Shown here: one piece after another, positions 4,549-47,422 of the stretch | How positions within the stretch are numbered: the stretch's first letter is position 1 | Layout: every line of letters starts with the position of its first letter | Source: Actinomycetales bacterium | GTDB lineage: Bacteria; Actinomycetota; Actinomycetes; Actinomycetales; Microbacteriaceae | Reading direction: 5' to 3' | Assembly (NCBI GenBank): GCA_015654575.1 | Contig: JAATGR010000141.1 | Span: 1-55,843 of the forward strand | DNA: 55,843 bases | Made by a program: the position numbers and the translations under genes | The notes under the pieces: generated by a model | What the model saw: the letters and a program-made list of their open reading frames with translations, nothing else | Databases searched by the model: none | Told to the model about the DNA's origin: nothing

Positions 4549-5259
4549 TCAGCCGGTGAAGACGGTCGAGCTGCGTCGCTCGTACCAGCGGGCCAGCTGC
4601 TCGCCGGCGCTGATGACGTGCGCGCGCATCTCCTCTCGGGCGGCCTCGATGTCGCCGCTGGCGAGCGCGTCGACGATGCGGCTGTGCTCGAGGTAGTTCT
4701 CCTCGCGGTGTCGTTCGTCGTTCACGAGCAGCTGCGCCGAGACGTTGCGAGGGAAGGTCTCGTTGATCTCCTCGATCGACCGGGCCAGCCGTGTGTTGGC
4801 GGCGACGCGGGTAATCGTGGTGTGGAAGATGTCGTTCTCCTGCCGGCTGCTCTTGCCGGCGTCCTGACCGGACAGCGAACGGTCGTACATCTCCTGGTTG
4901 GCGGTGCGGAGGCTGTCCAGGTCGGCCTGCGAGATGCGGCTGACCGCGCGGGCGGCCGCGAGCGACTCGAGCTCGGCGCGCACCTCATAGGCCTCCCGCA
5001 CCTCCCAGGGTGCGGGCACGCGCACGACGGCGCCGCGGTTGGGGACCACCTCGATGAGTCCGCCGGTCTGCAACTGGCGCAGCGCTTCGCGTACGGGCGT
5101 GCGGCTCACCCCGAAGTCGTTCGCGAGCTCGGCCTGTCGCAGCTGCGCCCCGATCGGGATGTCGCCGTTCATGATCCGGCCGCGGATCTTGCCCGCGATC
5201 TCATCGACCAGCGCGTGCCCGGAGGCGGTGGGAGCGAGGGACTCGTCGGTAGCGGGCAT
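4549..5259 (-). CDS. GntR-family transcriptional regulator (FCD-type C-terminal domain)
   Basis: wHTH IPIGAQLRQAELANDFGVSRTPVREALRQLQTGGLIEVVPNRGAVV; start ATG 5259 preceded by AGGAGG. Confidence 0.92.
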   Translation of the reverse strand: MPATDESLAPTASGHALVDEIAGKIRGRIMNGDIPIGAQLRQAELANDFGVSRTPVREALRQLQTGGLIEVVPNRGAVVRVPAPWEVREAYEVRAELESLAAARAVSRISQADLDSLRTANQEMYDRSLSGQDAGKSSRQENDIFHTTITRVAANTRLARSIEEINETFPRNVSAQLLVNDERHREENYLEHSRIVDALASGDIEAAREEMRAHVISAGEQLARWYERRSSTVFTG

Positions 5260-5360
5260 TGTTCCTCCTGTACGCGCGGTCCCGGCCGCACGTGGGGAAC
5301 CGTAGCAGAACGTCGCGCGGTGGACCCGATCTGGTCGGGTGTGGCGCACGGTATCGCAAT

Positions 5361-5393
5361 ATTGGATCCATTAACTACGTGTTAGGATCCAAA
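5361..5393. promoter_or_regulatory. Paired GGATCC operator, site 1 (gntR / oxygenase operon)
   Basis: ATTGGATCCATT (core 5364-5369) and TTAGGATCCAAA (core 5385-5390); core starts 21 bp apart. Confidence 0.85.
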
Positions 5394-10746: not shown

Positions 10747-11760
10747 ATGCCGCACACCGTGCAGACCGTGACCGGTCCGATCACCGCCGACCAGCTCGGA
10801 GTGACGCTCCCCCATGAGCACGTCTACATCAACATGACGCGCACCACGCCGCAGGACGGGTACCTCAACGTCGCGGACGAGATGGCGCAGGAGCTCGCGC
10901 TGTTCACCGCGGCGGGCGGCTCCACCCTGATCGACATGACCAACGGCGAGCTCAGCGACTACGCGGCGCCCGTCGGATACGCGCCCGACGCGCGGGCGAT
11001 GCAGCAGAACCCCGACACCGGCTCGCGCTCGGTCTCCAACGTGCTGGCCACCAAGGAGATGGCGCAGCGCACCGGGGTGCAGGTGATCCTCGGCACCGGG
11101 CACTACTACGACACCTACCTCAACAAACAATGGTTCGATCGCAACTCGACGAATCAGATCGCCGACTTCCTCGTCGCGGATCTGCTCGAGGAGATCCCCG
11201 GCACCGGGGTACGCGCCGGGATCATCGGTGAGATCGCCTCCGACCTGTCGCACATCACCGCGGTGGAGGAGCGCTCGTTCCGCGCGGCGGGCCGGGCGAG
11301 CCGGGAGACCGGGATCATGGTCTCCACGCACGCGGCGACCTTCCCCACCGGTCTCGCCCAGCTGGAGATCCTGCGGGAGGAGGGCGTCGACCCCTCGCGG
11401 GTGGTCATTGGCCACGCCGACACGGTCAAGAGCGTGGACTACTCGCTCGAGATCCTCCGTCAGGGCGCTTTCGTCGAATTCGACTGCCTCATGACATGCC
11501 GGATCGGCGGTCGCGTCATCGACCATCAGGTCGACCGGCGGCTGTCGTACCTGAAGACCATGATCGACGCCGGATACCGGGATCGGATCCTGCTCTCGCA
11601 GGACGTCTGCCAGCGGTCGCACCTGCGCGCGCTGGGCGGACCCGGATACACGTTCCTGTTCGAGGAGTTCCGCAGCGCGGCGATCGACGCCGGCATCGAG
11701 GCCGAGATCCTCGATGCCATCCACACTGACAACCCACGTCGCGCCGTCTTCGGCGACTGA
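10747..11760 (+). CDS. Phosphotriesterase-family metallohydrolase (PTE1, canonical ligands)
   Basis: PHEHVYINM, IIGEIASD, STHAATF, VIGHADT, ILLSQDVC match the H-x-H / E / H / H / D ligand set. Confidence 0.88.
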   Translation: MPHTVQTVTGPITADQLGVTLPHEHVYINMTRTTPQDGYLNVADEMAQELALFTAAGGSTLIDMTNGELSDYAAPVGYAPDARAMQQNPDTGSRSVSNVLATKEMAQRTGVQVILGTGHYYDTYLNKQWFDRNSTNQIADFLVADLLEEIPGTGVRAGIIGEIASDLSHITAVEERSFRAAGRASRETGIMVSTHAATFPTGLAQLEILREEGVDPSRVVIGHADTVKSVDYSLEILRQGAFVEFDCLMTCRIGGRVIDHQVDRRLSYLKTMIDAGYRDRILLSQDVCQRSHLRALGGPGYTFLFEEFRSAAIDAGIEAEILDAIHTDNPRRAVFGD

Positions 11761-11778: not shown

Positions 11779-12792
11779 ATGCCCATCCACACGGTTCTCG
11801 GCCCGATCGCGGCGGAAGACCTCGGCGCGACCTCGTTCCACGAACACATCCTCAGCGACCTCAGCATGTGGGCGAAGGAGCCGAGAGAGCATCGACCTGA
11901 CGGTGTCGGGATCGGGCCGGAACTGGCGGGCTACCTGCGGTGGAACGCACTGTCGGTGCCGGAGAACCTCGTCCTGGACGACGCTGACGCCGCCGCGGAG
12001 GAGCTCGGCGAGGTCGCCAAGGCCGGCGGCTCAGCGGTGCTCGAGCTCACACTGGAAGGTATGGGGCGCCGAATCGAGGAGCTGCCCGCGATCTCGCGCG
12101 CGTCGGGCGTCCACGTGATGGTCGGCGGCGGGTTCTACGTCGAGGAGACCATGCCGGATGAGGTCCGCGCCGCGGACATCGACGCGCTCGCCGAGATCCT
12201 CGTCGACCAGTTGCGCACCGGCATCGGAGACACCGGCATCCTCCCCGCGATCCTCGGCGAGATCGGCACCAGCTGGCCGATCACCGAGGCGGAGTGGCGA
12301 TCGGTGCGGGCGGCCGGCCGCGCCGGCGCGCAGACCGGCGCCGCCGTCTACACGCACCAGTCGTTCCGTGGCCAGGGCGGGGTCGGCGTCCTCGAGGCAC
12401 TGCTCGAGGAGGGAATGCCGGCTGACCGCATCGTCATCGGCCATCTCGATGAGCTCTGGGACAGGGAGTACCACCGGGAGATCGCCCAGTCCGGCGCGAT
12501 GCTCGCCTACGACACCTTTGGCACCGACGCCTACTACGGCAGCGTGGCCTTCCGCAGCCCGACGGACGCGGAACGGCTGGCCATGATCGAATGGCTGCTC
12601 TCCGAGGGCTACGGCGACCAGCTGGTCATCGGATCCGACATCTGGATGAAGGCACATCTGCACCGCAACGGCGGGCACGGCTACGACCATCTGTTCCGAC
12701 GCATCGGTCCAGCGATCGCCGCGCTGGGGGGCGCGGCCGTGGCCGAACGGATCCTGGTGCACAACCCGCGACGTCTGCTGGAGCGGGCGTGA
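11779..12792 (+). CDS. Phosphotriesterase-family metallohydrolase (PTE2, canonical ligands)
   Basis: FHEHILSD, ILGEIGTSW, VYTHQSF, VIGHLDE, LVIGSDIWM. Confidence 0.88.
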   Translation: MPIHTVLGPIAAEDLGATSFHEHILSDLSMWAKEPREHRPDGVGIGPELAGYLRWNALSVPENLVLDDADAAAEELGEVAKAGGSAVLELTLEGMGRRIEELPAISRASGVHVMVGGGFYVEETMPDEVRAADIDALAEILVDQLRTGIGDTGILPAILGEIGTSWPITEAEWRSVRAAGRAGAQTGAAVYTHQSFRGQGGVGVLEALLEEGMPADRIVIGHLDELWDREYHREIAQSGAMLAYDTFGTDAYYGSVAFRSPTDAERLAMIEWLLSEGYGDQLVIGSDIWMKAHLHRNGGHGYDHLFRRIGPAIAALGGAAVAERILVHNPRRLLERA

Positions 12793-20906: not shown

Positions 20907-20937
20907 TGGATCCAACAAACAGATGATAGGATCCAAT
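20905..20937. promoter_or_regulatory. Paired GGATCC operator, site 2 (gamma-glutamyltransferase operon)
   Basis: AATGGATCCAAC (core 20908-20913) and ATAGGATCCAAT (core 20929-20934); 21 bp apart. Confidence 0.85.
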
Positions 20938-25550: not shown

Positions 25551-25583
25551 TTAGGATCCATCTACTCATATATTGGATCCATA
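25551..25583. promoter_or_regulatory. Paired GGATCC operator, site 3 (binding-protein genes)
   Basis: TTAGGATCCATC (core 25554-25559) and ATTGGATCCATA (core 25575-25580); 21 bp apart. Confidence 0.85.
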
Positions 25584-27933: not shown

Positions 27934-27966
27934 AACGGATCCATAGCGACCTAAATTGGATCCATA
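27934..27966. promoter_or_regulatory. Paired GGATCC operator, site 4 (permease/ATPase operon)
   Basis: AACGGATCCATA (core 27937-27942) and ATTGGATCCATA (core 27958-27963); 21 bp apart. Confidence 0.85.
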
Positions 27967-30909: not shown

Positions 30910-31938
30910 TCAGAGCGCGCTGGTCGGCGGGTCCGGGCGGTCCAGTAGGAGCGCCGGGGCGGTGACGAGCAGGCCGCGCAGACGCTCGTCCTCCACGCCG
31001 AGCCGCCGCAGCGCCGGCACGACCCGGCGCAGGACGTGGTCGTAGCCCATGCCGCCGTGCCGGGCCAGCTGGCCCTTGGTCCACACCGAGCAAGACAGCG
31101 TGACGGCAGCCTCCGGCCGATCCGCCAGCAGCGCCAGCAGGAACTCGATCCGGTCCGCGTCGGTGGCATCCCGCGCCCGGTCAGCGAAGGAGTGCTCGCT
31201 GCCGAAGGCGAATTCGATCACCGCGCCGGTGTCGGCGACGTCGCCGACGTAGGCGGCATCGATCACTTTGTCCATGTTGCAGAACAGGATGCGTCGCGCG
31301 GGAAGTCCCTGCGCCGTGAGGATCTCCGCGACCTCCGGGCCGCGACGCGCCGCACCGTCGAGACGGATGCTGACCGCGCACCCCGCGGCGACGGCAGCAC
31401 GTGCCGCCGCGCGCAGGGCCCGTGATTCCGCGGCGGTGATCTCGGCGCTCGTGCCGAGCAGCCCGAGCAGTCCGGCGCGGAACGACGTGCCGGGGACGGC
31501 CTCGGTGAGGGCCTCCCGGAACCGATCCTCGATCTGCGCCTCCGACAGGGCGGACCACCAGGGGGGCAGCGTCTTGTCGATATAGCTGCCGTAGGCGCTG
31601 ACAATGTGGACTCCGGATCGCCGGGAGATCGCGGGGAGCGCCGCATGGCGCGGCCCCATGCCCCACGACGTCGCCTCGACGATGGCGCCGAGTCCGGCCG
31701 TGTGCGCACGGGCGAGTTCCTCGGTGGCCGCCTGCTCGTCGTCGAGGGTCAGGTTGTCTGCCAGGGACATCCAGCTCCACCTCAGGTCGCCGAGGATCTC
31801 TGCGCGGATCGGCCCGTCGAGCGTGGCGCCTTCCCGGGTGGGGCGGAGCAGGTGACGGGAATCGGTGAGCAGGTGCTCGTTCGTGGACACCGGCCCGAGC
31901 GCCGCAGCCGGAACCGGACCGAGGACCGTCTCGATCAC
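30910..31938 (-). CDS. Phosphotriesterase-fold protein with degenerate metal site (PTE3)
   Basis: Collinear with PTE2, but HEH->NEH, LGEIG->LGLLG, THQ->IRL, GHLD->CNMD, GSDIW->SCSVW. Confidence 0.85.
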   Translation of the reverse strand: MIETVLGPVPAAALGPVSTNEHLLTDSRHLLRPTREGATLDGPIRAEILGDLRWSWMSLADNLTLDDEQAATEELARAHTAGLGAIVEATSWGMGPRHAALPAISRRSGVHIVSAYGSYIDKTLPPWWSALSEAQIEDRFREALTEAVPGTSFRAGLLGLLGTSAEITAAESRALRAAARAAVAAGCAVSIRLDGAARRGPEVAEILTAQGLPARRILFCNMDKVIDAAYVGDVADTGAVIEFAFGSEHSFADRARDATDADRIEFLLALLADRPEAAVTLSCSVWTKGQLARHGGMGYDHVLRRVVPALRRLGVEDERLRGLLVTAPALLLDRPDPPTSAL

Positions 31939-31959
31939 GGGGCCTCCGATAGCTCAGTA

Positions 31960-31992
31960 GGTGGATCCTATATAGGCTAATCTGGATCCTAT
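31960..31992. promoter_or_regulatory. Paired GGATCC operator, site 5 (divergent PTE3 / amidohydrolase)
   Basis: GGTGGATCCTAT (core 31963-31968) and TCTGGATCCTAT (core 31984-31989); 21 bp apart. Confidence 0.85.
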
Positions 31993-32011
31993 CTTTGCGA
32001 AAGGGATCACG

Positions 32012-32782
32012 ATGATCATCGACGCCTACAACACCACGCAGGACGTACGTGGGCGCTCGGACTATCTCACCGGCGCCCGCCCGGGGGACGAGCCACCCGC
32101 GTACGTGCCCTTCGACGTGGGGCGCATCCTCGGCAGCATGGACGCCGCCGGAGTCGACATGGCCATGGTGTGCTCCCTGGCGCAACGGATCGAGAACGAC
32201 TTCATCATCGGCTTGCAGGAGGCTCACCCCGACCGGCTCATCGGCTTCGGCCAGGTCATGCCGCAGGCCGACGACGCGATAGCGGAGATCCAGCGGCTGG
32301 CGGACGCCGGGATCCGTGGCCTCAAGCTGCATCCGAGTATGCACGGGTACCACGTGGCCGACCATGGGCTGCTCGACCCGGTGTTCCGGGAGTGCGCGCG
32401 TCATGGCATGGCGGTGATCATCAACGCGCTCGACGACGCGTTCTGCGCACCGTTCGCCATCGAGGAGATCGTGAAGGACCACCCAGATGTGCCGACCGTC
32501 ATCGCGCACATGGGCGCGGTGTGGAACGTGCCGGAGGCCATCATCGTCGCCGAGCGCCGGGACAACGTCTATCTCGAGACCTCCGCGACGCTGATGGCTG
32601 ATGTCAAGCGCGCGTATGCGCGTCTGGGGCCGGAGAAGATCCTGATGGGTTCGGAGTGGCCGGGGTCCGATTTCGACATCGAGCGTCTCAAGATCTCCAA
32701 GGCGGTCCCCGACCCCGGTGATCGCGCGCTGGTGGAGGGGCTGAACTACGCCCGGCTGCTGCGCATTCCGGCCGTCCGGTGA
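32012..32782 (+). CDS. Amidohydrolase-2-family protein with degenerate N-terminal metal motif
   Basis: N-terminus MIIDAYNTT in place of DxHxH; GLKLHPSMHGY, TVIAHMGAVW, GSEWPGSDFD. Confidence 0.82.
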   Translation: MIIDAYNTTQDVRGRSDYLTGARPGDEPPAYVPFDVGRILGSMDAAGVDMAMVCSLAQRIENDFIIGLQEAHPDRLIGFGQVMPQADDAIAEIQRLADAGIRGLKLHPSMHGYHVADHGLLDPVFRECARHGMAVIINALDDAFCAPFAIEEIVKDHPDVPTVIAHMGAVWNVPEAIIVAERRDNVYLETSATLMADVKRAYARLGPEKILMGSEWPGSDFDIERLKISKAVPDPGDRALVEGLNYARLLRIPAVR

Positions 32783-33216
32783 GCACTCGGCCACCGCTGT
32801 CCCGGCCGGCGGAGATGGGCGATTCGGACGCGGAGCTGCTGGATCTCGCGCGGCACCTGCTCGCGGACGTCTTCGAACCCGGGCGGCATGAGGTCGTCGC
32901 TGCGTTCCGCCTCGGCGACGGATCCGTGGTGACCGGGGTCCATGTGGACGGCTCTGCCCGTCGCAGCACGGTGTGCGCGGAGGGGGTGGCCGCGGGGAAC
33001 GTGTTCGGCGGCCCGGCGGGGGCCTCGCGCGAGGTCGTGTCCGTGGTCAGCGTGCTGCGTCGCGAAGGGGGCCTCGAACACATCATCGAACCGTGCGGGG
33101 TCTGTGCCGAACTGCTCGGAGACTACTGGCCGGACGCGAGAGTGTGGATCACCGAGGGTGAACGCGTCGTCGCGGCGACCGTCGCCGCGCTGCTGCCCGC
33201 GCGTCGTCGCTGGTGA
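32779..33216 (+). CDS. Cytidine/blasticidin-S deaminase-like zinc deaminase
   Basis: VCAEGVAAGNV and EPCGVCAELL zinc motifs. Confidence 0.85.
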   Translation: MSTRPPLSRPAEMGDSDAELLDLARHLLADVFEPGRHEVVAAFRLGDGSVVTGVHVDGSARRSTVCAEGVAAGNVFGGPAGASREVVSVVSVLRREGGLEHIIEPCGVCAELLGDYWPDARVWITEGERVVAATVAALLPARRRW

Positions 33217-33223
33217 TACGGGC

Positions 33224-34486
33224 TCACGCCGCCGGATCGCGCGGCTCGTCCGTGGTGCCGCGGTCACGGGGAGACTCGTCGCGGGTGAAGACCGTCAGCA
33301 CGACCAGCGCGACGACCTGGAGCCCCGCCACGATCAGGAACGCCCACATCGAGGAGGCCCAGGCCATCACGAAGCCGCCCACCAGGGCGCCGGCGCCGTA
33401 GCCGATGCTCGTGAAGCTGGAGAAGAGTCCGAGACCCAGGGCACGATTGCGCGGCACCAGCTCGCGTGTCGCGATCATCGTGAGGGACGGATACAGCGGG
33501 GAGAACCCCACGCCGATGAGCACCGCCCCCGCCGATGCCACCCAGAAGTTCGTCGCCAGCGCCAGCACGGTGAGGCCGGCGGCGAGGCAACTGAGCGAGA
33601 TGGCGGTCGAGCGCAGCGGACCGATCCGGTCGGGCAACGACGCGAGGGCGAGGCGGGCGAGGATGACGCTCACGGCGAAGACGGCGTAGACGGACGCGGC
33701 GCCGGTGATCCCCGTGGAGGGGACGCCCGCCGAGACGAGGTGGACGATCAGGAACGCGATCATGATGCCCTCGCCGCACCATGCAGCCGCGGCGACCACG
33801 CCCGGCACCCAGACCGCGCGAAGGCTGTGCCACAGGGCCTTGCCGCTCTGGCGCGGCAGGCTGATCGGTCCGGTCGCGGTCGAGACCGGCGGCATCTTCT
33901 TCGGGTGCGGCAGCAGTGCGATCGTCGCCGCGGTGGCCAGTTCGAGTGCGGCGCAGACCAGGAAGACGGTGGTGGTGCCTCCCATCTGCTCGACCGCCGT
34001 GCCCAGTTGCGGGCCCAGCGCGAGACCGATCCAGACGCTCAGGCCGAAATAGCTGAGCGCCTTGCCGCGCTGCGGGGCCGGCGTGATGGCGACGAGCCAC
34101 GCCATGACGAGCGTCATCGCCGCGGCGTTTCCCAGGCCGAAGAGCACCCGGCTCAGCGCGGCGCCCCACAGCGCGGGAAGAACCGCGAGCAGGAGCATCG
34201 CGCCGGCGGCGATCACGCTGCCGCTCAGTGCGGTGAGACGGTATCCGCGTCGGTCGGCCAATGCGCCGGCGGCGGGCATCGCGACCATCGAGGCCACCGC
34301 TGCCAGTGCGATGATCGAGCCGGCAAGGGTGCTGTCTCCGCCGAGCGTGTTCTCGACGTATTCCGGGATGACCGGTGTGCTGGCCGAGTTGGTCACGCCG
34401 CCAAGGGTGGAGGCGATGAAGATCAGCCAGAACGGGATCGTGCGGGTGACGTCGCGGGAGGCGGCCACCGTCGCTGCTGTCACAAC
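33224..34486 (-). CDS. MFS transporter
   Basis: Twelve-TM-like protein; GALADRRGYRLT loop. Start GTG 34486 chosen (SD GGAG); ORF extends to 34519. Confidence 0.9.
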   Translation of the reverse strand, partial: VVTAATVAASRDVTRTIPFWLIFIASTLGGVTNSASTPVIPEYVENTLGGDSTLAGSIIALAAVASMVAMPAAGALADRRGYRLTALSGSVIAAGAMLLLAVLPALWGAALSRVLFGLGNAAAMTLVMAWLVAITPAPQRGKALSYFGLSVWIGLALGPQLGTAVEQMGGTTTVFLVCAALELATAATIALLPHPKKMPPVSTATGPISLPRQSGKALWHSLRAVWVPGVVAAAAWCGEGIMIAFLIVHLVSAGVPSTGITGAASVYAVFAVSVILARLALASLPDRIGPLRSTAISLSCLAAGLTVLALATNFWVASAGAVLIGVGFSPLYPSLTMIATRELVPRNRALGLGLFSSFTSIGYGAGALVGGFVMAWASSMWAFLIVAGLQVVALVVLTVFTRDESPRDRGTTDEPRDPAA

Positions 34487-34977
34487 GAGGTCTCCGGGTG
34501 GCACTCGAGGCTCAGCCACAGTTCGAAGCAGTTGTTGCGCGAGAGCGACGTCGCTCCGATGGATGCGCGGCCCACGCTCCCGATCTCCTCACCGAACACG
34601 TCGAGGAAGAGATCGGTCGCGCCGTTGGCGACGAGATGGAGATCCTCGAAGCCGGGAGGGCACACCACGAAGCACAGTGCGCGCGAGAGGCTGACAACGT
34701 TGTCCAGCGAGCCGACCGCGTACCGGATCATGCCGAGCGTGTGCACCGCTGTCAGTCGCGCAGCGGCGTACCCCTCCTCGATTGTGACGTCGACGCCGAT
34801 CGCGCCGGGATGGAGCCGCTGGCCCGCGCGACTCTCCGGCGTGAGGCCGGCGAGCTCGACGAGGTTCCCGATCCGGTGGAACGGCTTCATGCGTCCGTAG
34901 CGGGCCCCGAACGGGGGATCCGAGTAGTCCGGGATGCTCAGGCCGAGCTCCTCGGCCTTCTGCTCTGCACTCGCCAT
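34480..34977 (-). CDS. RidA/YjgF-family protein (copy 1)
   Basis: RidA-like pattern RIGNLVELAGLTPESR...LGMIRYAVGSLDNV...DLFLDVFGEEIGSVGRASIGATSL; SD GGAGG. Confidence 0.85.
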   Translation of the reverse strand: MASAEQKAEELGLSIPDYSDPPFGARYGRMKPFHRIGNLVELAGLTPESRAGQRLHPGAIGVDVTIEEGYAAARLTAVHTLGMIRYAVGSLDNVVSLSRALCFVVCPPGFEDLHLVANGATDLFLDVFGEEIGSVGRASIGATSLSRNNCFELWLSLECHPETSL

Positions 34978-34993
34978 CGTTCTCGCTCCTCCA

Positions 34994-35026
34994 TTTGTAT
35001 CCGATACCAACTAGAATGGATCCACT
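34994..35026. promoter_or_regulatory. Paired GGATCC operator, site 6 (divergent ridA-like pair), one degenerate half
   Basis: TTTGTATCCGAT (core 34997-35002, one mismatch) and AATGGATCCACT (core 35018-35023); 21 bp apart. Confidence 0.75.
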
Positions 35027-35046
35027 CTAGCCATGATGGAGGAAGC

Positions 35047-35556
35047 ATGCTGCGGAGCGCAGAGGAACGTGTCTCGGAGCTCGGACTTGTCGTCCCCGAC
35101 TACTCGAATCCCCCCTATGGAACCCGCTACGCGACGATGAAGGCATTCCACCATCTCGGGCGCACGCTCACGATCAGCGGCATCACCCCGGAGGACCGTT
35201 CCGGCAACAAGGTGCATCCCGGTCGGGTCGGGCAGAACGTCACGGTCGAACAGGGATATGCGGCGGCCCGGTATGCGGCGATCAACGTCCTCGGTCTGAT
35301 CCGGTACGCGGTCGGATCGCTGGACGAGGTCGCGGGATTCGTCCGCACGCTGACCTTCGTCTGCGTCGATCCGGACTTCTGGGATGTGAACCTCGTGACC
35401 AACGGCGCAGCGGACCTATTCGTCGAGGTGTTCGGCGACAGTGTGGGGCGTTCGACGTCGGCCGGGATCGGGGTGACGAGCCTCTCCGGCGGCAACGTCT
35501 TCGAGATGGTGACGGTTGTCGAGACCCGCAGCCCCGCTCCGGGGAATCCGGCATGA
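35047..35556 (+). CDS. RidA/YjgF-family protein (copy 2)
   Basis: LGRTLTISGITPEDRSG...LGLIRYAVGSLDEV...DLFVEVFGDSVGRSTSAGIGVTSL, paralogous to copy 1; SD GGAGGAAG. Confidence 0.87.
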   Translation: MLRSAEERVSELGLVVPDYSNPPYGTRYATMKAFHHLGRTLTISGITPEDRSGNKVHPGRVGQNVTVEQGYAAARYAAINVLGLIRYAVGSLDEVAGFVRTLTFVCVDPDFWDVNLVTNGAADLFVEVFGDSVGRSTSAGIGVTSLSGGNVFEMVTVVETRSPAPGNPA

Positions 35557-36461
35557 GGGTCGATACCCACCTGCACGTCTATGCCGATCCCGCCCGGGGG
35601 CGATACGAGATCGAGAACTTCCCGATCGTGGAGTACGGCCACATGGATCACGTGCCGCTGGCAGGTGTGGGTGGCTCCGTGACGGACGCGCTGGCAGCGC
35701 TCGACGATGCCGGATTCGACTACGCGACGGTGCTCGGCAGCTACGAGGTGCCGGGTTATCCGGACCTGCCCCCAGGGCTCGACCACTGGCCCTCGGACCC
35801 GGTCCACGGGCGCTACCGAGACGACCTGATCGCCTATAACCGCTGGGTGTGTGAGATGACCGCTCCGCACGATCAGCTGATCCCGTTCGTCAGTGCCAAC
35901 CCGGCGGTGATGACCTCCGCCCAGTCCTACGCCCATCTCGCCGAGGCCTTCGGGGACTGGGGCGCGAAGGGGCTGAAGGTGCACCCGATCGGCATTCGCA
36001 CGTTTCCGGACGATCCGGGCATGGACGGCGTCTACGACGCGTGCGTGCAGGCGGGAGTGCCGATCGTCTTCCATTCCGGGCCGGACACCCGGGGGCGCGG
36101 GTTCTCGGAGCCGGAGCGCTTCGGTGGGCTCGCCGCGTCCCGGCCGGAGCTGAAGCTCGTTCTCGCGCACCTCGGCGGCGGCTCGTGGCGCGCCACCACC
36201 GCGCTCGCGGCCACGCACCCGCAGCTCATGTTCGACATGTCCGAGATCGTGATCTGGATCGGCGCGAGCGCCGGCCCGACCGTGCACGAGGTCGCGTCGC
36301 TGGTGCGCGACATCGGCGTCGAGCGGGTCCTCACCGGGTCGGACTTCCCGTGGTACACGCCGGGGCTGACCGCCGAGCGCATCGAATCGTTGCCCGGCTT
36401 CTCCCGGCAGGAGCGCGATCTGCTCCTCGGCGAGAACGCGGCCCGGCTGCTCGGACTCTAG
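35553..36461 (+). CDS. Amidohydrolase-2-family metallohydrolase (canonical)
   Basis: MRVDTHLHVY (HxH), LVLAHLGGGSW, VLTGSDFPWY; ATGA overlap with ridA-like copy 2. Confidence 0.9.
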   Translation: MRVDTHLHVYADPARGRYEIENFPIVEYGHMDHVPLAGVGGSVTDALAALDDAGFDYATVLGSYEVPGYPDLPPGLDHWPSDPVHGRYRDDLIAYNRWVCEMTAPHDQLIPFVSANPAVMTSAQSYAHLAEAFGDWGAKGLKVHPIGIRTFPDDPGMDGVYDACVQAGVPIVFHSGPDTRGRGFSEPERFGGLAASRPELKLVLAHLGGGSWRATTALAATHPQLMFDMSEIVIWIGASAGPTVHEVASLVRDIGVERVLTGSDFPWYTPGLTAERIESLPGFSRQERDLLLGENAARLLGL

Positions 36462-36487
36462 GTCGGTTCCGCGAGCCGGACCTGGTC

Positions 36488-37582
36488 TCACAGTGCCGCG
36501 CGCAGCCCCCGGCTCACGAGCAGCGGGTGGATGTCATCCGCGAACCGCGACATGCCGTCCTCCCACAGCGGCCAGCCGAGCAGGCACCCATCAATCCCGA
36601 CGTCCGTCAGCCACTCCAGGCCATCGGCGACCTGTGTCGGGGTGCCGACCAGCGGCACGCCGCCATCCCCGGCGACCCAGCTGAACCGTCGCGCCGCGGT
36701 CGAGTTGTCACCGGCGACCTCCGCCTCGACGCCCATGATCTTCAGTGCGTTGATCGCGGCGTCGTGCATGCCGTGCTCCTGCGCGTAATAGTGCAGGAAG
36801 TCCCGCGCGGCCTGTTCGCTCTCGCCGTCGACGACGTAGCCGAACGTCCACACCTCGAGATCCCTGCCGAACTTCTCCCGCGCCTGCCGCTTGGCGTTGG
36901 CGACCTGTTCGGTCGCGAGCTCGCGATCGTCGCTGAGCTTCACGTACAGCTTGTCGGTGTGCGCCAACGCGAAATCGAGACCGCGGCCAGACATCGCCGC
37001 GTTCATGATCTGCGGCCGCGCGCCCAGCGGCTTCGGCTTCGACACCGCGCCGTGCAGCTGGAAGAACTCGCCCTCGAAGTCGAACTCGGCCTCTTCGGAC
37101 CACAGCCTCTCGACGATCTCGATCCACTCGTCCGCCATGTCGTAGCGGCGATCGTGGTGGAGGAGGTTCGTGCCGAACATCTCCATCTCGGGCCGGTACC
37201 AGCCGGCGAGCACGTTGATGCCGGCCCTCCCGCCGGTCACGTGATCGATGGTCGCCATCTGCTTCGCGGCCATCACGGGGTGCACGACCGGCATCGCGAC
37301 GGTGGCGAAGACCCGCGCCGAGTGGGTCACGGCCCCGACCGCGGCGGCCCAGGTCAACGTGTCGTAGGCGTCCGAGTGGGGATCGTGTTCCCCGCCGTAC
37401 CCCTTCCACCGGGAGATCGGGACGATGGCTTCGAATCCCATCGCCTCGGCGCGGGCGGCGAGGTCGGTGACGCGCGACCAGTCGGTGGTCAGTGCGCCCG
37501 GGATCGTGGTGAAGGTGATACCCGGAGCGAGGTTGGTGCCGAAGGTCCCGAGCTGCAGCCGATTCGTCGTCATACCGGTCAC
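36488..37582 (-). CDS. LLM-class flavin-dependent monooxygenase, RutA/DmoA-like
   Basis: GFEAIVPISRWKGYGGEHDPHSDAYDTLTWAAAVGAVT; HVTGGRAGINVLAGWYRPEMEMFG. Confidence 0.9.
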   Translation of the reverse strand: MTGMTTNRLQLGTFGTNLAPGITFTTIPGALTTDWSRVTDLAARAEAMGFEAIVPISRWKGYGGEHDPHSDAYDTLTWAAAVGAVTHSARVFATVAMPVVHPVMAAKQMATIDHVTGGRAGINVLAGWYRPEMEMFGTNLLHHDRRYDMADEWIEIVERLWSEEAEFDFEGEFFQLHGAVSKPKPLGARPQIMNAAMSGRGLDFALAHTDKLYVKLSDDRELATEQVANAKRQAREKFGRDLEVWTFGYVVDGESEQAARDFLHYYAQEHGMHDAAINALKIMGVEAEVAGDNSTAARRFSWVAGDGGVPLVGTPTQVADGLEWLTDVGIDGCLLGWPLWEDGMSRFADDIHPLLVSRGLRAAL

Positions 37583-37938
37583 TTATAGACCACGTAGAAC
37601 TTGCGGACCGGTTCGATCACAGTCCACTCGCCGGTCCAGCCGATCGGGAAGAACGCGGCGCTGCCGGCGGTCAGTTCCACCGCGTCCTCGCCGTCGCGCT
37701 TCACGCTCATGCGGCCGGAGAGGATGTGGACGATCTCGCCTCGCCCGGTGAACTCCCATCGGGAGACTCCCGGGTCGCTCTCCCAGACGCCGGAGATCAC
37801 GGTGCGGTCGTCGTTGACGAACTCGACCTTTCCGCGGACGATGATCTCGCCCGAGAGTGGCTGCGCGTTCGGCGGGGCGAGGGGTTTGGCTTCGAGTTCT
37901 GCGGCGTCCAGATCGGCCGGGCGGATTACATGCGTCAT
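37579..37938 (-). CDS. Cupin-domain protein
   Basis: VSRWEFTGRGEIVHILSGRMSVKRDGEDAVELTAGSAAFFPIGWTGEWTVIEPVRKFYVVYK. Confidence 0.87.
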   Translation of the reverse strand: MTHVIRPADLDAAELEAKPLAPPNAQPLSGEIIVRGKVEFVNDDRTVISGVWESDPGVSRWEFTGRGEIVHILSGRMSVKRDGEDAVELTAGSAAFFPIGWTGEWTVIEPVRKFYVVYK

Positions 37939-37939
37939 G

Positions 37940-37972
37940 ATTGGATCCTAAATATCTAATAATGGATCCGCA
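37940..37972. promoter_or_regulatory. Paired GGATCC operator, site 7 (divergent cupin-LLM / PTE4)
   Basis: ATTGGATCCTAA (core 37943-37948) and AATGGATCCGCA (core 37964-37969); 21 bp apart. Confidence 0.85.
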
Positions 37973-38007
37973 AGTACGGTGTGCGGAGAGCGGGAGAGGT
38001 GTCGGAC

Positions 38008-39027
38008 ATGATCGAGACGGTGCGGGGCCCGGTCGCTCCGGGCGATCTGGGCGTCACCTGCATGCACGACCACATCCTGAGCGACTCCTCCCGGTTACGG
38101 CGCGACGGCGCGCAGCCCGCCCCCGACCTCGAACGGGTATCGCTCGAGAACCTGGGGTATCTGCGCTGGAACATGCTCGCATCCATCGACAACCTCCGCC
38201 TGGACGACGAGGAGGCGATCGTCGCGGACCTTGCCGACGGGGTCTCGCGCGGCCAGCGCACCCTCGTCGAGTGCTCCTCCCTCGGGCTCGGCCCCAACCA
38301 CGCGGCGCTTGCGGCGGTGTCGGTCTCGTCGGGGATGCAGATCGTCAGTGCATACGGTGCCTACATCCCGCGCACGGTGCCCGGGTGGGTCTCCGAACTC
38401 TCGGAGTCGGCGCTGGAGGAGCACTTCCTGGAAGCGCTGACCGTTGCCGTTCCCGGCACCGCCTTCCGGGCCGGGATGCTCGGAATCATGGGGACGACCG
38501 ATGAGCTGGCCGAGCGTGAACGGGTGCAACTGCGCGCGGCCGGTCGCGCGGCGGCACGCACGGGCGCCGCCGTGTCGGTGCGTCTGGACGGCGACGCGTT
38601 CCACGGGCCCGCGGTGATCGCCCTGCTCGAGGGTGTCGGGCTGCCCGCCGACCGGATCGTCTTCACCAACGCCGACGAATACATGGATGCCGCGTACTGG
38701 TCCGATCTGTCGGCGGCGGGCGCCGTGCTGGAGATGTGCTTCGGCACCGAGGCGTGCCATGTTGGCCGGGTCGACAACCCGTCGGATCGGGAGCGCCTCG
38801 CCTTCTTCCCGGAGTTCGTCCTCGCGCACCCGCTCTCACGGCACGTGCTGGGGCAGTCACTGTGGACCAAAGCGCAGCTTGCGGCCTACGGCGGCCACGG
38901 CTACGGCTACCTGATGGGACGCATCGTCCCGCAGCTGCGTTCGCTCGGGGTGTCGTCGCAACGCCTCGATGCGATGCTGGTCACCGAGCCGAGGCGTGTG
39001 CTCGATCGCGACGCCGCCGCGGAGTAG
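38008..39027 (+). CDS. Phosphotriesterase-fold protein with degenerate metal site (PTE4)
   Basis: Collinear with PTE2/PTE3; HDH kept, but LGEIG->LGIMG, THQ->VRL, GHLD->TNAD, GSDIW->GQSLW. Confidence 0.85.
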   Translation: MIETVRGPVAPGDLGVTCMHDHILSDSSRLRRDGAQPAPDLERVSLENLGYLRWNMLASIDNLRLDDEEAIVADLADGVSRGQRTLVECSSLGLGPNHAALAAVSVSSGMQIVSAYGAYIPRTVPGWVSELSESALEEHFLEALTVAVPGTAFRAGMLGIMGTTDELAERERVQLRAAGRAAARTGAAVSVRLDGDAFHGPAVIALLEGVGLPADRIVFTNADEYMDAAYWSDLSAAGAVLEMCFGTEACHVGRVDNPSDRERLAFFPEFVLAHPLSRHVLGQSLWTKAQLAAYGGHGYGYLMGRIVPQLRSLGVSSQRLDAMLVTEPRRVLDRDAAAE

Positions 39028-39048: not shown

Positions 39049-40401
39049 TCAGGCGGCGTCGTAGACGATTCGCCCGCCGGCCACGGTGCGCGCCACCGTC
39101 GCGCCGGCCAGGTCGTCATCGGAGGCCGTCAGCGGATCAACCGTGAGCTCGGCCCAGTCGGCCAGCCTTCCGGGGGAGAGCATGCCGCGGTCGTGCTCGG
39201 TGAAGGCGGCGAACGCGGCGTCCGTCGTGGCCGCCCGCAGAGCCTCCTCCGGGGTGAGCCGCTGCGCGATGCCCACCGGCGTTTCGAGGCCGCGAACCGC
39301 CCTCGTGCGGGTAAACCACATCAGGCGCAGCGGATCGAACGGGAAGTACGGGCCGTCGGAGCCGAGCGCGACGCGCACGCCGGCATCGAGCCACGATCGC
39401 AGCGGGTTCGCCTCGTCGGCGCCCACCGAGTCGCGCAGCCACGCGCCGTTGTGCCATTGGATGGCCGGCTGCGACGAGACCAGGACGCCGAGCCGCGCGG
39501 CCTCGGCGAGCACCCGCGCATCCGGTTCCAGATAGGCGTGGATGAGCCGGAAGCGCAGGTCGCGGAGGGGGACGACGGCGTCGACCCGAGCGAAGGATTC
39601 GAGGGCCAGGCGCATGGCGCGTCCGCCGATCGCGTGCACGCCCAGCGCCCAGCCGTTGCGGGCGCAGAACAGTGCGATCCGATCGAGGTCGGCGTCCGAG
39701 ATCGCGCGCACGCCGTGCTCGCCGGTGGCGGGCCAGGGGCGTTCCCGTAGCGCCTGCATCCGCTTGCCTTCGCCGTCGACGTAGACCTTGAGCGCCCCGA
39801 ACGACAGCGTGTCGTCGCCGAACCCCGATCCGACGCCGAGTCCGCCGATCGCGTCGATCACCTCCTCCGCGGTCGTGACGGCGTCGCGGAGCCCTTCGAA
39901 ATAGGGCATGGCGACCACGCGCAAGGAGAGTCCGCCGTCCCGGTGGGCTGCGTGATAGCCGCGCACGGTCTCTGCCGTGGCCCAGGGGTCGACGACGGTG
40001 GTGATGCCGAGGCCGTGCAGCAGTGGTTGGATCCGGATCAGGCCCTGTCGGCGCTCGGCCGGCGTCGGAGGGTCGGCGCCGTTCCAGTCCGCATCGAGGG
40101 CGGTGCGCGCCATCGCCTCCTGGAACTCGTCGATCGTGGGCTCGCGGTCGGGGAAGAGGTCGACGACTTTGATCCCGCCGCGCTGAAGGTAGAAGTGGGA
40201 GTCCACGAAGCCCGGCACGATCACCCCGCGTGCGGTCTGCTCGACGGCGTCTGGGCAGGCTGCGCGCAGCGCGGCCGCCGTGCCGGTCGCGACGATGCGG
40301 GCGCTATCGACCACCATCGCCTCGACGTAGGGCGAGCCCGGATCCATCGTGATGATGTCCCCCCGGACGAGGATCGGACGAGAGTCATATATTGGATCCA
40401 T
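39049..40401 (-). CDS. YtcJ-type amidohydrolase (copy 2), HxH altered to HFY
   Basis: GFVDSHFYLQRGG, VHAIGG, IHAYLEP, VALGSDGPYF. Start placed at ATG 40401 within the operator region. Confidence 0.82.
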   Translation of the reverse strand: MDPIYDSRPILVRGDIITMDPGSPYVEAMVVDSARIVATGTAAALRAACPDAVEQTARGVIVPGFVDSHFYLQRGGIKVVDLFPDREPTIDEFQEAMARTALDADWNGADPPTPAERRQGLIRIQPLLHGLGITTVVDPWATAETVRGYHAAHRDGGLSLRVVAMPYFEGLRDAVTTAEEVIDAIGGLGVGSGFGDDTLSFGALKVYVDGEGKRMQALRERPWPATGEHGVRAISDADLDRIALFCARNGWALGVHAIGGRAMRLALESFARVDAVVPLRDLRFRLIHAYLEPDARVLAEAARLGVLVSSQPAIQWHNGAWLRDSVGADEANPLRSWLDAGVRVALGSDGPYFPFDPLRLMWFTRTRAVRGLETPVGIAQRLTPEEALRAATTDAAFAAFTEHDRGMLSPGRLADWAELTVDPLTASDDDLAGATVARTVAGGRIVYDAA

Positions 40402-40423
40402 AAGATCTATTTTAGGATCCATA
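40391..40423. promoter_or_regulatory. Paired GGATCC operator, site 8 (divergent ytcJ-like copy 2 / DAO-HyuAB)
   Basis: ATTGGATCCATA (core 40394-40399) and TTAGGATCCATA (core 40415-40420); 21 bp apart. Confidence 0.85.
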
Positions 40424-43433: not shown

Positions 43434-45041
43434 GTGGCGCGCGTGGACGATCCGGTGGTCAGAGAGCTGCTGTGGAACGGGTTCGACGCGATCGTCGGCG
43501 AGATGTCGTTGCTGCTGCAGCGCAGCTCGTTCTCGCCGATGATCCGGGAGATGCTCGACTTCTCCTGCGGCTTCCTCGATCCGCAGGGTCGGATCGTCGC
43601 CGATTCCCATCTGATCCCCGCGCAGGCGGGCACGCTCGAGTTCGCACTCGCCGGTGCGCTGGCGCGGACCGGCCCGCTCGACGAGGGTGACGTCGTTATC
43701 ACGAACGATCCGTACCAAGGCGCGACGCATCTGCCGGACGTGGAGGTGTTCGCACCCGTGCATGCCGCGGGCGTGCTGCTCGGATACGTCGCCACCGTGG
43801 CCCATCACATCGACATCGGCGGCATCCAGGCGCGTAACCGCGGCGCGATCCCGGGGCACGCCGCGTCGCGCGATCTGTTCGAGGAGGGCCTGCAGCTGCC
43901 GCCGGTGAAGCTGATTGAAGGCGGCGTGCGCAACGAGGCGCTGTGGCAGGTGCTGCTGCGCAACGTGCGCGACCCCGAATCGGTGGACGGTGATGTCACG
44001 GCCCAGCTCTCCTCCTGCCGTCGCGGGATCGCCCGGTTGGCGGAGCTCGCCGAGCGGTACGGCGCCGGGACGGTGGTCGACGCGGCGGCCGACCTCATCG
44101 ACGACACGTCCGCGCGGGCGCAGGAGCGGCTGCGGGCCTGGCCGAAGCGGACCGTGCACAAGGTGGGCCATCTCGACGGCGACGGCCTCGATTACTCCCG
44201 GCCGGTGCGCGTCGAGGTAGCGGTGACGGTACAAGACGGCCGGATGCGGGTCGATCTCGGCGGCTCCGCCCCGCAGACGACCGGCACGTTCAACGTGCCG
44301 TGGTCGAGCACCTACTCGGGGCTGTACTACGCACTGCGCTGCTTCCTCGGTCCCGGAATCCGTCAGAACCACGGCTACATGATGCATGTCGAGGCGGTCG
44401 CCCCGGAGGGATCGATCTTCCGGCCGCGGCGGCCCGCGGCCGTCGTATCCCGACACATGGCGGTGCAGGTCCTCACGGATCTCGTCTTCCAGGCCTTGAG
44501 CGAGCTGCTCCCGAACCGAGCCGTCGCCTCCAGTCATGTGTCGTTCCCGACGCTGCTGATGCGCACGACCGACCCGCGTACCGGCACGCAGCGGACACTC
44601 ATGGACACCGTGGGCGGCGGTTCCGGAGCGCATCGCGACGGGCCCGGCGACGACGGCATCGACTCCTACACCTCCAACTGCGCCCTCATCCCGGCCGAGG
44701 TCATCGAACTGGAGTATCCGTGGCGGGTGACGGCGTGCGCGTTGGTCGATGGCACCGCCGGCAACGGAGTCCACCGGGGCGGTCGCGCGGTGCGACGCGA
44801 ATACGAGCTCCTCGCGGATGCGGCCACCGGCCGGGTGGCTGCGGAGCAGCGTCGCGCCGGCAGCGGCGCGAGAGGCGTCGCGGGCGGCGGGAACGGCTCG
44901 CCCGCTGCCGTCGCGATAAGGCGGCACGGGCGCGACGACTGGCAGAGCGTTCCGTTCGAGACGACGGCGCTCGCCCTCCTGCGGGGCGACGTCGTACGGC
45001 TGGTCGCCGGCGGTGGCGGCGGCTACGGTGTGGCGGAGTGA
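43434..45041 (+). CDS. Hydantoinase B/oxoprolinase family protein, HyuB type (copy 2)
   Basis: LLWNGFDAIVGEMSLLLQRSSFSPMIREMLDFSCGFLD; TNDPYQGATHLPDVEVFAPV; C-terminal VAGGGGGYGV. Confidence 0.92.
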   Translation: MARVDDPVVRELLWNGFDAIVGEMSLLLQRSSFSPMIREMLDFSCGFLDPQGRIVADSHLIPAQAGTLEFALAGALARTGPLDEGDVVITNDPYQGATHLPDVEVFAPVHAAGVLLGYVATVAHHIDIGGIQARNRGAIPGHAASRDLFEEGLQLPPVKLIEGGVRNEALWQVLLRNVRDPESVDGDVTAQLSSCRRGIARLAELAERYGAGTVVDAAADLIDDTSARAQERLRAWPKRTVHKVGHLDGDGLDYSRPVRVEVAVTVQDGRMRVDLGGSAPQTTGTFNVPWSSTYSGLYYALRCFLGPGIRQNHGYMMHVEAVAPEGSIFRPRRPAAVVSRHMAVQVLTDLVFQALSELLPNRAVASSHVSFPTLLMRTTDPRTGTQRTLMDTVGGGSGAHRDGPGDDGIDSYTSNCALIPAEVIELEYPWRVTACALVDGTAGNGVHRGGRAVRREYELLADAATGRVAAEQRRAGSGARGVAGGGNGSPAAVAIRRHGRDDWQSVPFETTALALLRGDVVRLVAGGGGGYGVAE

Positions 45042-45096
45042 ACCGAAGCCCATGTCGTCTTCCCGCTCTCGCCGCCGGCAGGACGAGTGCGACGCA

Positions 45097-45762
45097 TCAC
45101 CGGGGGCGGATCACGGAGGCCAACGCCTGCCCCTGTGTGACGGTGATCGCGATCGCCGCGGACGGGACGCCCACGAGCCGAAGCGTTGCGGTAGCGGTCC
45201 CGACGAGATCGGATGCCGAGGGCGGGAGGCCCCGGCGGCGCTGCAGGATGACGCTCTCCACGAGGGCGAGCACCAGTTGCGCGGTGAGCGCCGTGCGCTC
45301 CGCCGGTACGCCGCAGGCGGCGACCAGCGTCCGGTAGGCGGTCTCGAGCTCGGAACGGCGCTCACGGAACGGCGCAAACGCCTCCGCCGAGATCTCCGGG
45401 GCGAGGTACAGCGCCCCGATGTTGTGGCGGCCAGACGCGAGGAGGCGGGCGTCGCAGGCGCACAGTGCCCACAGTCGTGCGGCCGGATCGTCTGCCGCGG
45501 CCAACAGCTGCGCCGCCGCGTCGAGGGAGGGCTGTACTGTGCTCAGCAGCAGCTCCAGGAGGATCGGGGCCTTGCCCGCGAAGTGGTGGTACAGCGATGC
45601 CTGGCGGATCCCCGCTGCCTCCGCGATCGCGTGTGTGCTCGTCACACCGTAGCCGCGCGTGCAGAACAGCTCGGCACTCGCTTCGAGGATGTCGGCGCGC
45701 GTCCCCCGACCAGTGACCGAATCGCCGGAGGCGCGGGGTCGACCCGGTCTCGCGCTGGCCAT
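45097..45762 (-). CDS. TetR-family transcriptional regulator
   Basis: HTH RADILEASAELFCTRGYGVTSTHAIAEAAGIRQASLYHHFAGKAPIL. Confidence 0.92.
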   Translation of the reverse strand: MASARPGRPRASGDSVTGRGTRADILEASAELFCTRGYGVTSTHAIAEAAGIRQASLYHHFAGKAPILLELLLSTVQPSLDAAAQLLAAADDPAARLWALCACDARLLASGRHNIGALYLAPEISAEAFAPFRERRSELETAYRTLVAACGVPAERTALTAQLVLALVESVILQRRRGLPPSASDLVGTATATLRLVGVPSAAIAITVTQGQALASVIRPR

Positions 45763-45891
45763 ACCGCCACGGTATCAGCGACACCGAACAGCCGGATCCC
45801 GCTCGACGGCCTCGGAAACGTCGGGGAAACGTTCGCCTGCTGTAATAACTGTCAAGCAATAGAAATTGAGCCGACGAACCGGAGGAACCCG

Positions 45892-46731
45892 ATGGACGGA
45901 CGCGTTGAAGCACTCGGCAGCGTGGGCGATGCCCGCACCGACGCCCGCGCCCGCGCCACCCGCTCGGAGTGGATGCCGGTCCTCCCGCCGTCCGCGGCGC
46001 CGTGGTCGCCGGAGGGTGTCGATCCCGGCGCGATGCGCTGGGCCGAGACGGTGGCACCCGGCGGTTACACGCACCTGCGCGTCGCCCGGGGGACCCGCAT
46101 CCGATTCGAAGACGTCACCGGCGACGCCTGCGCGCACGTGCTGCTGTTCAACGCCCTGGCGCCGGGAGAACGGCTGAACGTCGCCGACACGCAGAAGATC
46201 CCCTGGCAGGCCTACCTCGGCGCGGGGCATCCGCTGCTCTCCGGCGACGGCCGGGTGCTCGCCACGATCGTCGAGGACACCTCCGGCCGGCATGACGCGT
46301 TCTGCGGCACCACGACGGACGCCTGGAACGAGCGCAAGTACGGCGACGCCGCCCCTGAGGGACCCTCGCCGTCGGGGCATGCCCTGCTGAGGCTGGCCGG
46401 GGCCAAGCACGGGTTGACCGTGCGCGATCTGCCGCCGGCCGTGACCTTCTTCCAGGGTGTGCGCGTCGACACGGACGGAGCGCTGCGCTGGCAAGGATCA
46501 GCCGGCGCCGGACGCCACGTCGATCTGCTCGCCGAGCTGCCGCTGATCCTGCTCGTCGCCGACGTTCCGCACGCGACCGACCCCAGGGACGACTACATCG
46601 TGGGGCCGTTGCGGGTAGCCGCCTGGCGGAGCAGCCCTACCGCCGCCGGCGACGCGATGTTCGGGGCCAGCCCGGAACGCGAGCGCGCCTACCGCAACAC
46701 GATCGCCTACGCCGAGCTCGCCGGGCTCTGA
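45892..46731 (+). CDS. DUF1989 urea-amidolyase-associated protein 1 (carboxyguanidine deiminase subunit-like)
   Basis: ETVAPGGYTHLRVARGTRIRFEDVTGDACAHVLLFNA; partner of adjacent DUF1989 gene; SD GGAGG. Confidence 0.85.
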   Translation: MDGRVEALGSVGDARTDARARATRSEWMPVLPPSAAPWSPEGVDPGAMRWAETVAPGGYTHLRVARGTRIRFEDVTGDACAHVLLFNALAPGERLNVADTQKIPWQAYLGAGHPLLSGDGRVLATIVEDTSGRHDAFCGTTTDAWNERKYGDAAPEGPSPSGHALLRLAGAKHGLTVRDLPPAVTFFQGVRVDTDGALRWQGSAGAGRHVDLLAELPLILLVADVPHATDPRDDYIVGPLRVAAWRSSPTAAGDAMFGASPERERAYRNTIAYAELAGL

Positions 46732-46741
46732 GAGGACTGCC

Positions 46742-47422
46742 ATGAACACCACCGTCCCGCCGCGTCCCGTCCACGCGCCCGACGTCGTGCTCGACTGGTC
46801 GGAGCCGCTGATCCCGGGGGCGCTGGTCCGCGACGACCGGGTCGCGCCGCGCGCGCCGTGGTCCGCGGTGCTCGCGGCGGGGGACGTTCTGACCATCGTC
46901 GACGTCGGGGGCAACCAGTCCGCCGATTTCCTCGCCTACAACGCCGCCGACACCGCCGAACGCTACAGCGCCGCGGACACGATCGCCTGGCAGGGCAACG
47001 TCTATGTGCGAAGCGGAACAGTGCTGCGCAGCAATCTCGGCCGACCCCTGCTCACCGTCGTCGCCAACGAGGTCGACCGGCAGGACACGATCGGCGGCGC
47101 CTGCGGCAAGGAGTCCAACACGCTCCGATACGGACACCACACGCTCTACCAGCACGGCTGCCGGGAGAACTTCCTCGCCGAAGGTGCCCGGCACGGCCTG
47201 GGTGCGCGTGACCTCGTCTCCAACCTGAACTGGTTCATGAACGTCCCGGTCGAGGCCGACGGGTCATTGGGGATCGTCGACGGCATGTCCGCACCGGGCA
47301 AGCGCGTGGCTCTGCGCGCGGAGCGGGACGTGCTGGTGATCGTCTCCAACTGTCCCCAGATGAACAACCCGTGCAACGACTTCAGCTGCACGCCGCTGCG
47401 CATGCTGGTGACGCGACCGTGA
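46742..47422 (+). CDS. DUF1989 urea-amidolyase-associated protein 2 (carboxyguanidine deiminase subunit-like)
   Basis: LTIVDVGGNQSADFLAYNAADTAERYSAADTI; NCPQMNNPCNDFSCTPLRM. Confidence 0.87.
   Translation: MNTTVPPRPVHAPDVVLDWSEPLIPGALVRDDRVAPRAPWSAVLAAGDVLTIVDVGGNQSADFLAYNAADTAERYSAADTIAWQGNVYVRSGTVLRSNLGRPLLTVVANEVDRQDTIGGACGKESNTLRYGHHTLYQHGCRENFLAEGARHGLGARDLVSNLNWFMNVPVEADGSLGIVDGMSAPGKRVALRAERDVLVIVSNCPQMNNPCNDFSCTPLRMLVTRP

Follow-up and report, generated by a model that had tools for sequence, protein, structure and literature searches.

The window analyzed here, a stretch of 55,843 nt from contig JAATGR010000141.1 (assembly GCA_015654575.1, Actinomycetales bacterium, Microbacteriaceae), encodes four proteins of the phosphotriesterase (PTE) family PF02126, and in two of them, PTE3 and PTE4, most residues of the binuclear metal site have been replaced. 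Both belong to a clade of 26 distinct full-length proteins in which replacement residues were retained across genera, and both probably function as metal-free proteins, being neither decayed remnants nor helpers of the canonical enzymes. The preferred reading, to which a probability of about 0.6 is given, is that PTE3 and PTE4 are metal-independent enzymes of amine or nitrogen-compound catabolism, catalysis and substrate being inferred.

The clade is a variant inside a known family and no new kind of system. Pfam places its members among the phosphotriesterases, and a metal-hydrolase label would mislead. No description of a metal-less PTE or PTE pseudoenzyme, or of a gene cluster with the make-up of the surrounding catabolic island, was found in the open-access papers searched, among which most subscription papers are missing.

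Metal ligands and fold of PTE3 and PTE4

In phosphotriesterases the binuclear site consists of four His and one Asp, with a carboxylated Lys or a Glu as the bridging ligand (PMC4323659). All PF02126 genes detected in assembly G000 (3.12 Mb, 81.6% complete), four in number, are located in the window:

PTE3, 30910..31938, minus strand, PF02126 protein with ligand signature NEH/L/R/N/S
PTE4, 37981..39027, plus strand, PF02126 protein with ligand signature HDH/I/R/N/S; ATG 38008 is the likely start
PTE1, 10747..11760, plus strand, canonical PF02126 protein (HEH/E/H/H/D), used for comparison
PTE2, 11779..12792, plus strand, canonical PF02126 protein (HEH/E/H/H/D) from the closest group to the metal-less clade

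An earlier note on this DNA had claimed that the metal site is lost in PTE3 and PTE4, and the residues it quoted were correct: with PTE1 and PTE2 canonical, H-x-H/E/H/H/D reads N-x-H/L/R/N/S in PTE3 and H-x-H/I/R/N/S in PTE4. The ligand positions of PTE2 (H21-E-H23, E161, H193, H222, D287) correspond to N20-E-H22, L160, R192, N221 and S284 in PTE3, and to H29-D-H31, I169, R201, N230 and S293 in PTE4 (numbered from GTG 37981). PTE4 probably starts at ATG 38008 rather than at that GTG, because its orthologues begin there. The second His of HxH is retained by both proteins, leaving one of the six ligands in PTE3 and two in PTE4. A carboxylated Lys as their bridging ligand was ruled out, that column being Gly in both; other proteins with V, I, A or L in the Glu column carry a Lys one column earlier in the alignment.

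Both frames are open and full length, and membership in PF02126 is clear from the Pfam scores (PTE3, 119 bits, E = 3.9e-34; PTE4, 115 bits, E = 4.7e-33; gathering cut-off 22.4), while none of the NCBIfam models scored above its cut-off against either protein. AlphaFold2 models built on 48-row alignments were confident (PTE3, pLDDT 96.3, pTM 0.94; PTE4, pLDDT 95.4, pTM 0.93) and predict an intact PTE-type (beta/alpha)8 barrel, with 3k2g and PTER as best Foldseek matches (TM 0.89-0.93, root mean square deviation 1.7-2.3 A). Neither the sequence alignment nor the predicted fold revealed intact ligands elsewhere in the two proteins, a finding that the earlier note had named as contrary to its view. 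In the PTE3 model, DSSP puts Y116 at the end of strand 3 and R192 at the end of strand 5, with N221 coming after strand 6 and S284 after strand 8. This places the four residues at the C-terminal strand ends, on the rim that holds the metals in relatives.

The same two proteins are the best solved relatives of PTE3 and PTE4 in both sequence and fold. These are 3k2g, a PTE-related protein from Rhodobacter sphaeroides labelled "resiniferatoxin-binding" (PF02126), and PTER, the N-acetyltaurine hydrolase (9efa/9efb). The profile alignment to them spans the entire chain, including a long insert before strand 2 that is aligned throughout; in it PTER and 3k2g show HEH/E/H/H/D, of which PTE3 and PTE4 keep just one or two. 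PTER hydrolyses N-acetyltaurine, and 15 point mutants at modelled active-site residues were assayed, many of them being inactive; H26, H28 and E169 are among the residues identified as metal contacts (PMC11374699).

Origin and retention of the metal-less clade

Homologues were searched in whole genomes, in one scan of genome contigs and in a plasmid collection. The searches recovered the 26 clade members from Herbiconiux, Jiangella, Streptomyces and other Microbacteriaceae. Their ligand columns show one of three signatures: NEH/L/R/N/S (PTE3 type), H[ED]H/I/R/N/S (PTE4 type) and HEH/L/R/T/S (hereafter R/T/S). Identity is 47% between PTE3 and PTE4 and 37% between either of them and PTE2. In a maximum-likelihood tree the metal-less clade received a support of 100/100 (25 rows) and grouped with the PTE2-like canonical proteins (100/98); a second, quick tree calculated without the six ligand columns recovered the clade again (SH-aLRT 100). 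The PTE2-like proteins, the nearest group in the tree, share with the clade a WxK/Q-x-x-L...GG-x-GY stretch and, unlike PTE3 and PTE4, have the complete ligand set in every member found.

A single loss of the binuclear ligands in a PTE2-related ancestor, followed by the duplication that gave PTE3 and PTE4, is well supported by these trees. Since PTE3 and PTE4 are sister paralogues, the shared R/N/S represents one inherited state and not a double coincidence; convergence of the two on the same residues was ruled out, as both trees place them in one clade. The basal member in the quick tree, a protein from a Streptomyces plasmid, reads HEH/I/R/N/S, which suggests that replacement of the Glu, two His and the Asp took place on the clade stem and that PTE3 lost the first His afterwards.

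The earlier note had taken the sharing of R/N/S as a sign of selection. Because one loss was inherited by both proteins, sharing by itself is weak evidence; it is the later retention that argues for selection. The 26 proteins have diverged to a mean pair identity of 54% (minimum 40%) and only 55 of 335 columns are invariant, among which are H22, R192 and S284 (PTE3 numbering). The second His of HxH is present in all 26 and the first in 19, and the catalytic Asp position is Ser in every member. Only P96, Y116, R192 and S284 are invariant in the clade and at the same time found in less than 5% of canonical proteins. The ratios of nonsynonymous to synonymous substitution rates (dN/dS, NG86 values) range from 0.13 to 0.34 for clade pairs, similar to the 0.11 to 0.25 of PTE1/PTE2 pairs. 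Retention of the replacement set after the loss is thus well supported, and the view that the site was selected and repurposed, not randomly decayed, stands on these invariant replacements in divergent proteins, together with purifying selection, an apparent regulon and the intact predicted fold.

That PTE3 and PTE4 are decaying paralogues devoid of function is scarcely credible. Their catalytic ligands are lost, as in a dead enzyme; against this, the frames are open, dN/dS is low as given above, the replacements are invariant across genera, a sole copy is kept in seven genomes and regulatory boxes, described below, lie upstream of the genes. A pseudogene or sequencing error was ruled out by the dN/dS values and by the occurrence of the same residue state in separate genomes, from Herbiconiux, Jiangella, Streptomyces and other Microbacteriaceae.

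Nor is it at all probable that one metal is still held cryptically by the remaining His and other residues. The constancy of the second His and the frequency of the first would fit such a site, whereas PTE3 has one of six ligands and no clade member has the bridging Glu/Lys or the Asp. New metal ligands elsewhere were ruled out, there being no His, Cys, Asp or Glu among the clade-specific invariant residues. The actual PTE3 and PTE4 proteins would be expected to contain no bound metal.

The earlier note had also proposed a regulatory partner of PTE1/PTE2, and a pseudo-subunit that forms mixed dimers with canonical PTE1 or PTE2 and regulates them could be imagined, as PTE family members are homodimers (PMC4323659). 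The metal-less protein co-occurs with PTE1/PTE2 in the window and in several other genomes. On a plasmid of Streptomyces sp. NBC_00564 (L157:20001-22574) genes for a PTE4-type protein, a canonical PTE2-like protein and RidA stand in a row, the first directly upstream of the second and both PTE-family genes annotated as "hypothetical protein". Such co-occurrence is not obligate: the R/T/S protein is the only PF02126 protein detected by whole-genome searches in six Microbacteriaceae genomes that are 99-100% complete (G818, G881, G907, G930, G1070, G1105), and in Herbiconiux ginsengi PTE3 is the sole one found, although sole-copy counts are subject to the gaps of draft genomes. S. radicis has PTE1-, PTE2- and PTE4-type genes, assigned by position and score, and a PTE3-type gene was not found in it. 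It follows from these genomes that PTE3 and PTE4 can occur independently of PTE1/PTE2 and of one another. A regulatory partnership is thus unsupported as a general role, and the pseudo-subunit is improbable.

Proposed function of the rebuilt pocket

According to the preferred reading, metal-independent catalysis, the barrel would be intact and the pocket rebuilt around Pro96, Tyr116, Arg192 and Ser284, together with the kept His22 and the Asn or Thr after strand 6. The guanidinium group of Arg192 would take over the electrostatic role of the metals and hold a carboxylate or oxyanion, and Tyr116, His22 and Ser284 may move protons. On account of the neighbouring genes for amine oxidation, RidA and amidases, the proposed substrate is an imine/enamine-type or an amide/lactam intermediate, which would be handled beside RidA and the amidases, and PTE3 and PTE4 would serve in a co-regulated island devoted to breaking down an amine or another nitrogen compound. 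A more specific form of this proposal is advanced tentatively, at somewhat less than even odds: that the clade comprises metal-independent PTE-family enzymes in which one Arg replaces the binuclear center, acting together with RidA and the ligand-depleted amidohydrolase AH2a in a catabolic pathway of actinobacteria that has not been described, under control of a GGATCC-N15-GGATCC box.

LigI (2-pyrone-4,6-dicarboxylate lactonase) is a metal-independent enzyme of the amidohydrolase superfamily; it operates metal-free on an amidohydrolase barrel and its Arg residues bind carboxylates, as is proposed for PTE3 and PTE4. LigI belongs to another Pfam family and keeps both HxH and the catalytic Asp, in contrast to the clade, which has Ser for Asp in 26/26 members and a complete HxH in 19/26.

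Several points weigh against catalysis. PTE3 and PTE4 lack the general acid/base Asp typical of the family, for which there are only candidate replacements; activity and substrate are inferred; that the side chains of Y116, R192, N221 and S284 face one pocket is deduced from strand positions in the model; Thr takes the place of Asn221 in the R/T/S subgroup, which means that the exact residue set is not fixed; and a binding protein with no turnover would give equal conservation. Such a non-catalytic carrier, sensor or scavenger, in which Arg, Ser, Asn and His hold a carboxylate, is considered unlikely, though it is a serious contender. It would account for the joint loss of the metals and the catalytic Asp, and it has counterparts in the collapsin response mediator proteins (CRMPs) and the inactive dihydroorotase subunits (pDHO), conserved homologues of dihydropyrimidinase and dihydroorotase that lack the metal ligands on an amidohydrolase fold and act non-catalytically as structural or regulatory partners. 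CRMPs and pDHO are from other families and have partner roles, whereas the metal-less clade lives in several genomes with no active paralogue. Moreover, the conserved changes sit at the former active site, and the genes form operon-like rows together with enzyme genes (AH3a-PTE3-amidase 2, RidA2-PTE4) and have no regulator of their own.

If the pocket is catalytic, it would represent a natural Arg-centered site that evolved from a two-metal site on the same barrel. The metal-dependent relative PTE2 is encoded in the same genome and the residues to test are few; the island, its common box and the minimal versions in other genera offer a direct route to the substrate.

The catabolic island and its common box

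A 27-bp dyad, GGATCC-N15-GGATCC, occurs in seven copies in the window, all in promoter regions (given without strand):

5364..5390, flanked by the GntR/FCD and Rieske reductase genes
20908..20934, upstream of the gamma-glutamyltranspeptidase gene
25554..25580, upstream of the first solute-binding protein gene
27937..27963, upstream of the ATP-binding cassette (ABC) permease gene
31963..31989, between PTE3 (start 31938) and AH2a (start 32012)
37943..37969, 39 bp upstream of the PTE4 ATG
40394..40420, between the Amidohydro_3 gene (minus) and the FAD oxidase gene (plus)

When extended, the consensus forms a dyad, approximately GGATCCAATCTA-N3-TAGATTGGATCC. A pattern with a wider gap gave 8 matches in the window vs. 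0.29 expected, with none of 100 shuffles as high. The whole genome contains eight boxes, of which seven are in the island (binomial 5e-12) and the eighth has a G+C-rich spacer. In three other genomes (G215, G326, G501) all copies lie on island contigs, as do five of six in G572, and boxes are found 1-37 bp upstream of PTE4 or R/T/S genes in G215, G326, G1118, G882 and G1056; directly upstream of the R/T/S gene of G881 none was found. The box, which also turns up at island loci in other genera, is apparently the operator of one regulon, and its position ahead of both PTE3 and PTE4 ties these genes to the island, which counts against decay. By position only, the GntR/FCD protein is a candidate regulator of the box genes.

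Other features of the island referred to in the text are:

RidA1, 34480..35010, minus strand, PF14588
RidA2, 34498..35556, plus strand, PF14588 encoded in the 3' half of the open reading frame
GntR/FCD regulator, 4549..5349, minus strand, candidate box reader
AH2a, 32012..32782, plus strand, PF04909 with DxHxH changed to DAYNT and GSD to GSE, divergent from PTE3 and sharing its box

The conserved island, apparently a co-regulated amine-degradation locus, includes oxidative genes (Rieske oxygenase and reductase, aldehyde dehydrogenase, GMC oxidoreductase, luciferase-like monooxygenase, FAD oxidase), hydrolytic and ligase genes (GlnA-like ligase, isochorismatase-type hydrolase, two HyuA/HyuB sets, two amidases, gamma-glutamyltranspeptidase, several amidohydrolases) as well as an ABC transporter, a major facilitator superfamily (MFS) transporter, two RidA and two DUF1989 genes; a large share of this set recurs in other genera. 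The published vitamin B2 pathway does not match: it has Rieske genes and neither a phosphotriesterase nor RidA. PTE3 orthologues stand in AH3a-PTE3-amidase 2 rows in G326, Jiangella and G501, and the PTE4 orthologue directly follows RidA2 in Jiangella and overlaps it in G501. Neighbours of R/T/S genes encode aldehyde dehydrogenase, MFS, RidA, aminotransferase V, FAD oxidase, gamma-glutamyltranspeptidase and copper amine oxidase. A RidA homologue was present in the fetched region of 16/17 genomes with a metal-less PTE vs. 0/13 loci with a canonical PTE, these control loci being partly shorter and from other taxa.

The two DUF1989 genes lie at the island end (45013-47422, plus strand), with an amidase gene after them in Jiangella and G501. 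DUF1989 pairs occur in urea/guanidine degradation loci, and by analogy the pair may give a hint of the island substrate.

As judged from its motifs, AH2a is a second amidohydrolase that lacks the usual metal ligands, adjoining PTE3. Its N-terminus reads DAYNT vs. DTHLH in AH2b of the same island, and GSE or GTE replaces the GSD of AH2b. Orthologues from six species are 74-90% identical and keep the altered residues, and each lies within the island or close to a metal-less clade member. In AH3b (PF07969, 39049-40623, minus strand) DSHFY stands for the DSHLH of its relatives; the G501 and G572 copies, which are more distant, do not show this loss.

An unrelated second loss within PF02126 was detected in four genomes of one Microbacteriaceae genus (L102:2547-3599:-, L103:2559-3611:-, L104:395-1447:+, L105:2553-3605:-). 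The ligand columns of these proteins read HEH (or SEH)/R/T or A/D/G, the Arg occupies a different ligand column from that of PTE3 and PTE4, and each gene forms a tandem pair with one for a canonical PTE. Genome G1003 encodes a third degenerate PF02126 protein (L149:2447-3307:-), which has S/S/G/G in the ligand columns and is encoded in tandem with a canonical Lys-type PTE.

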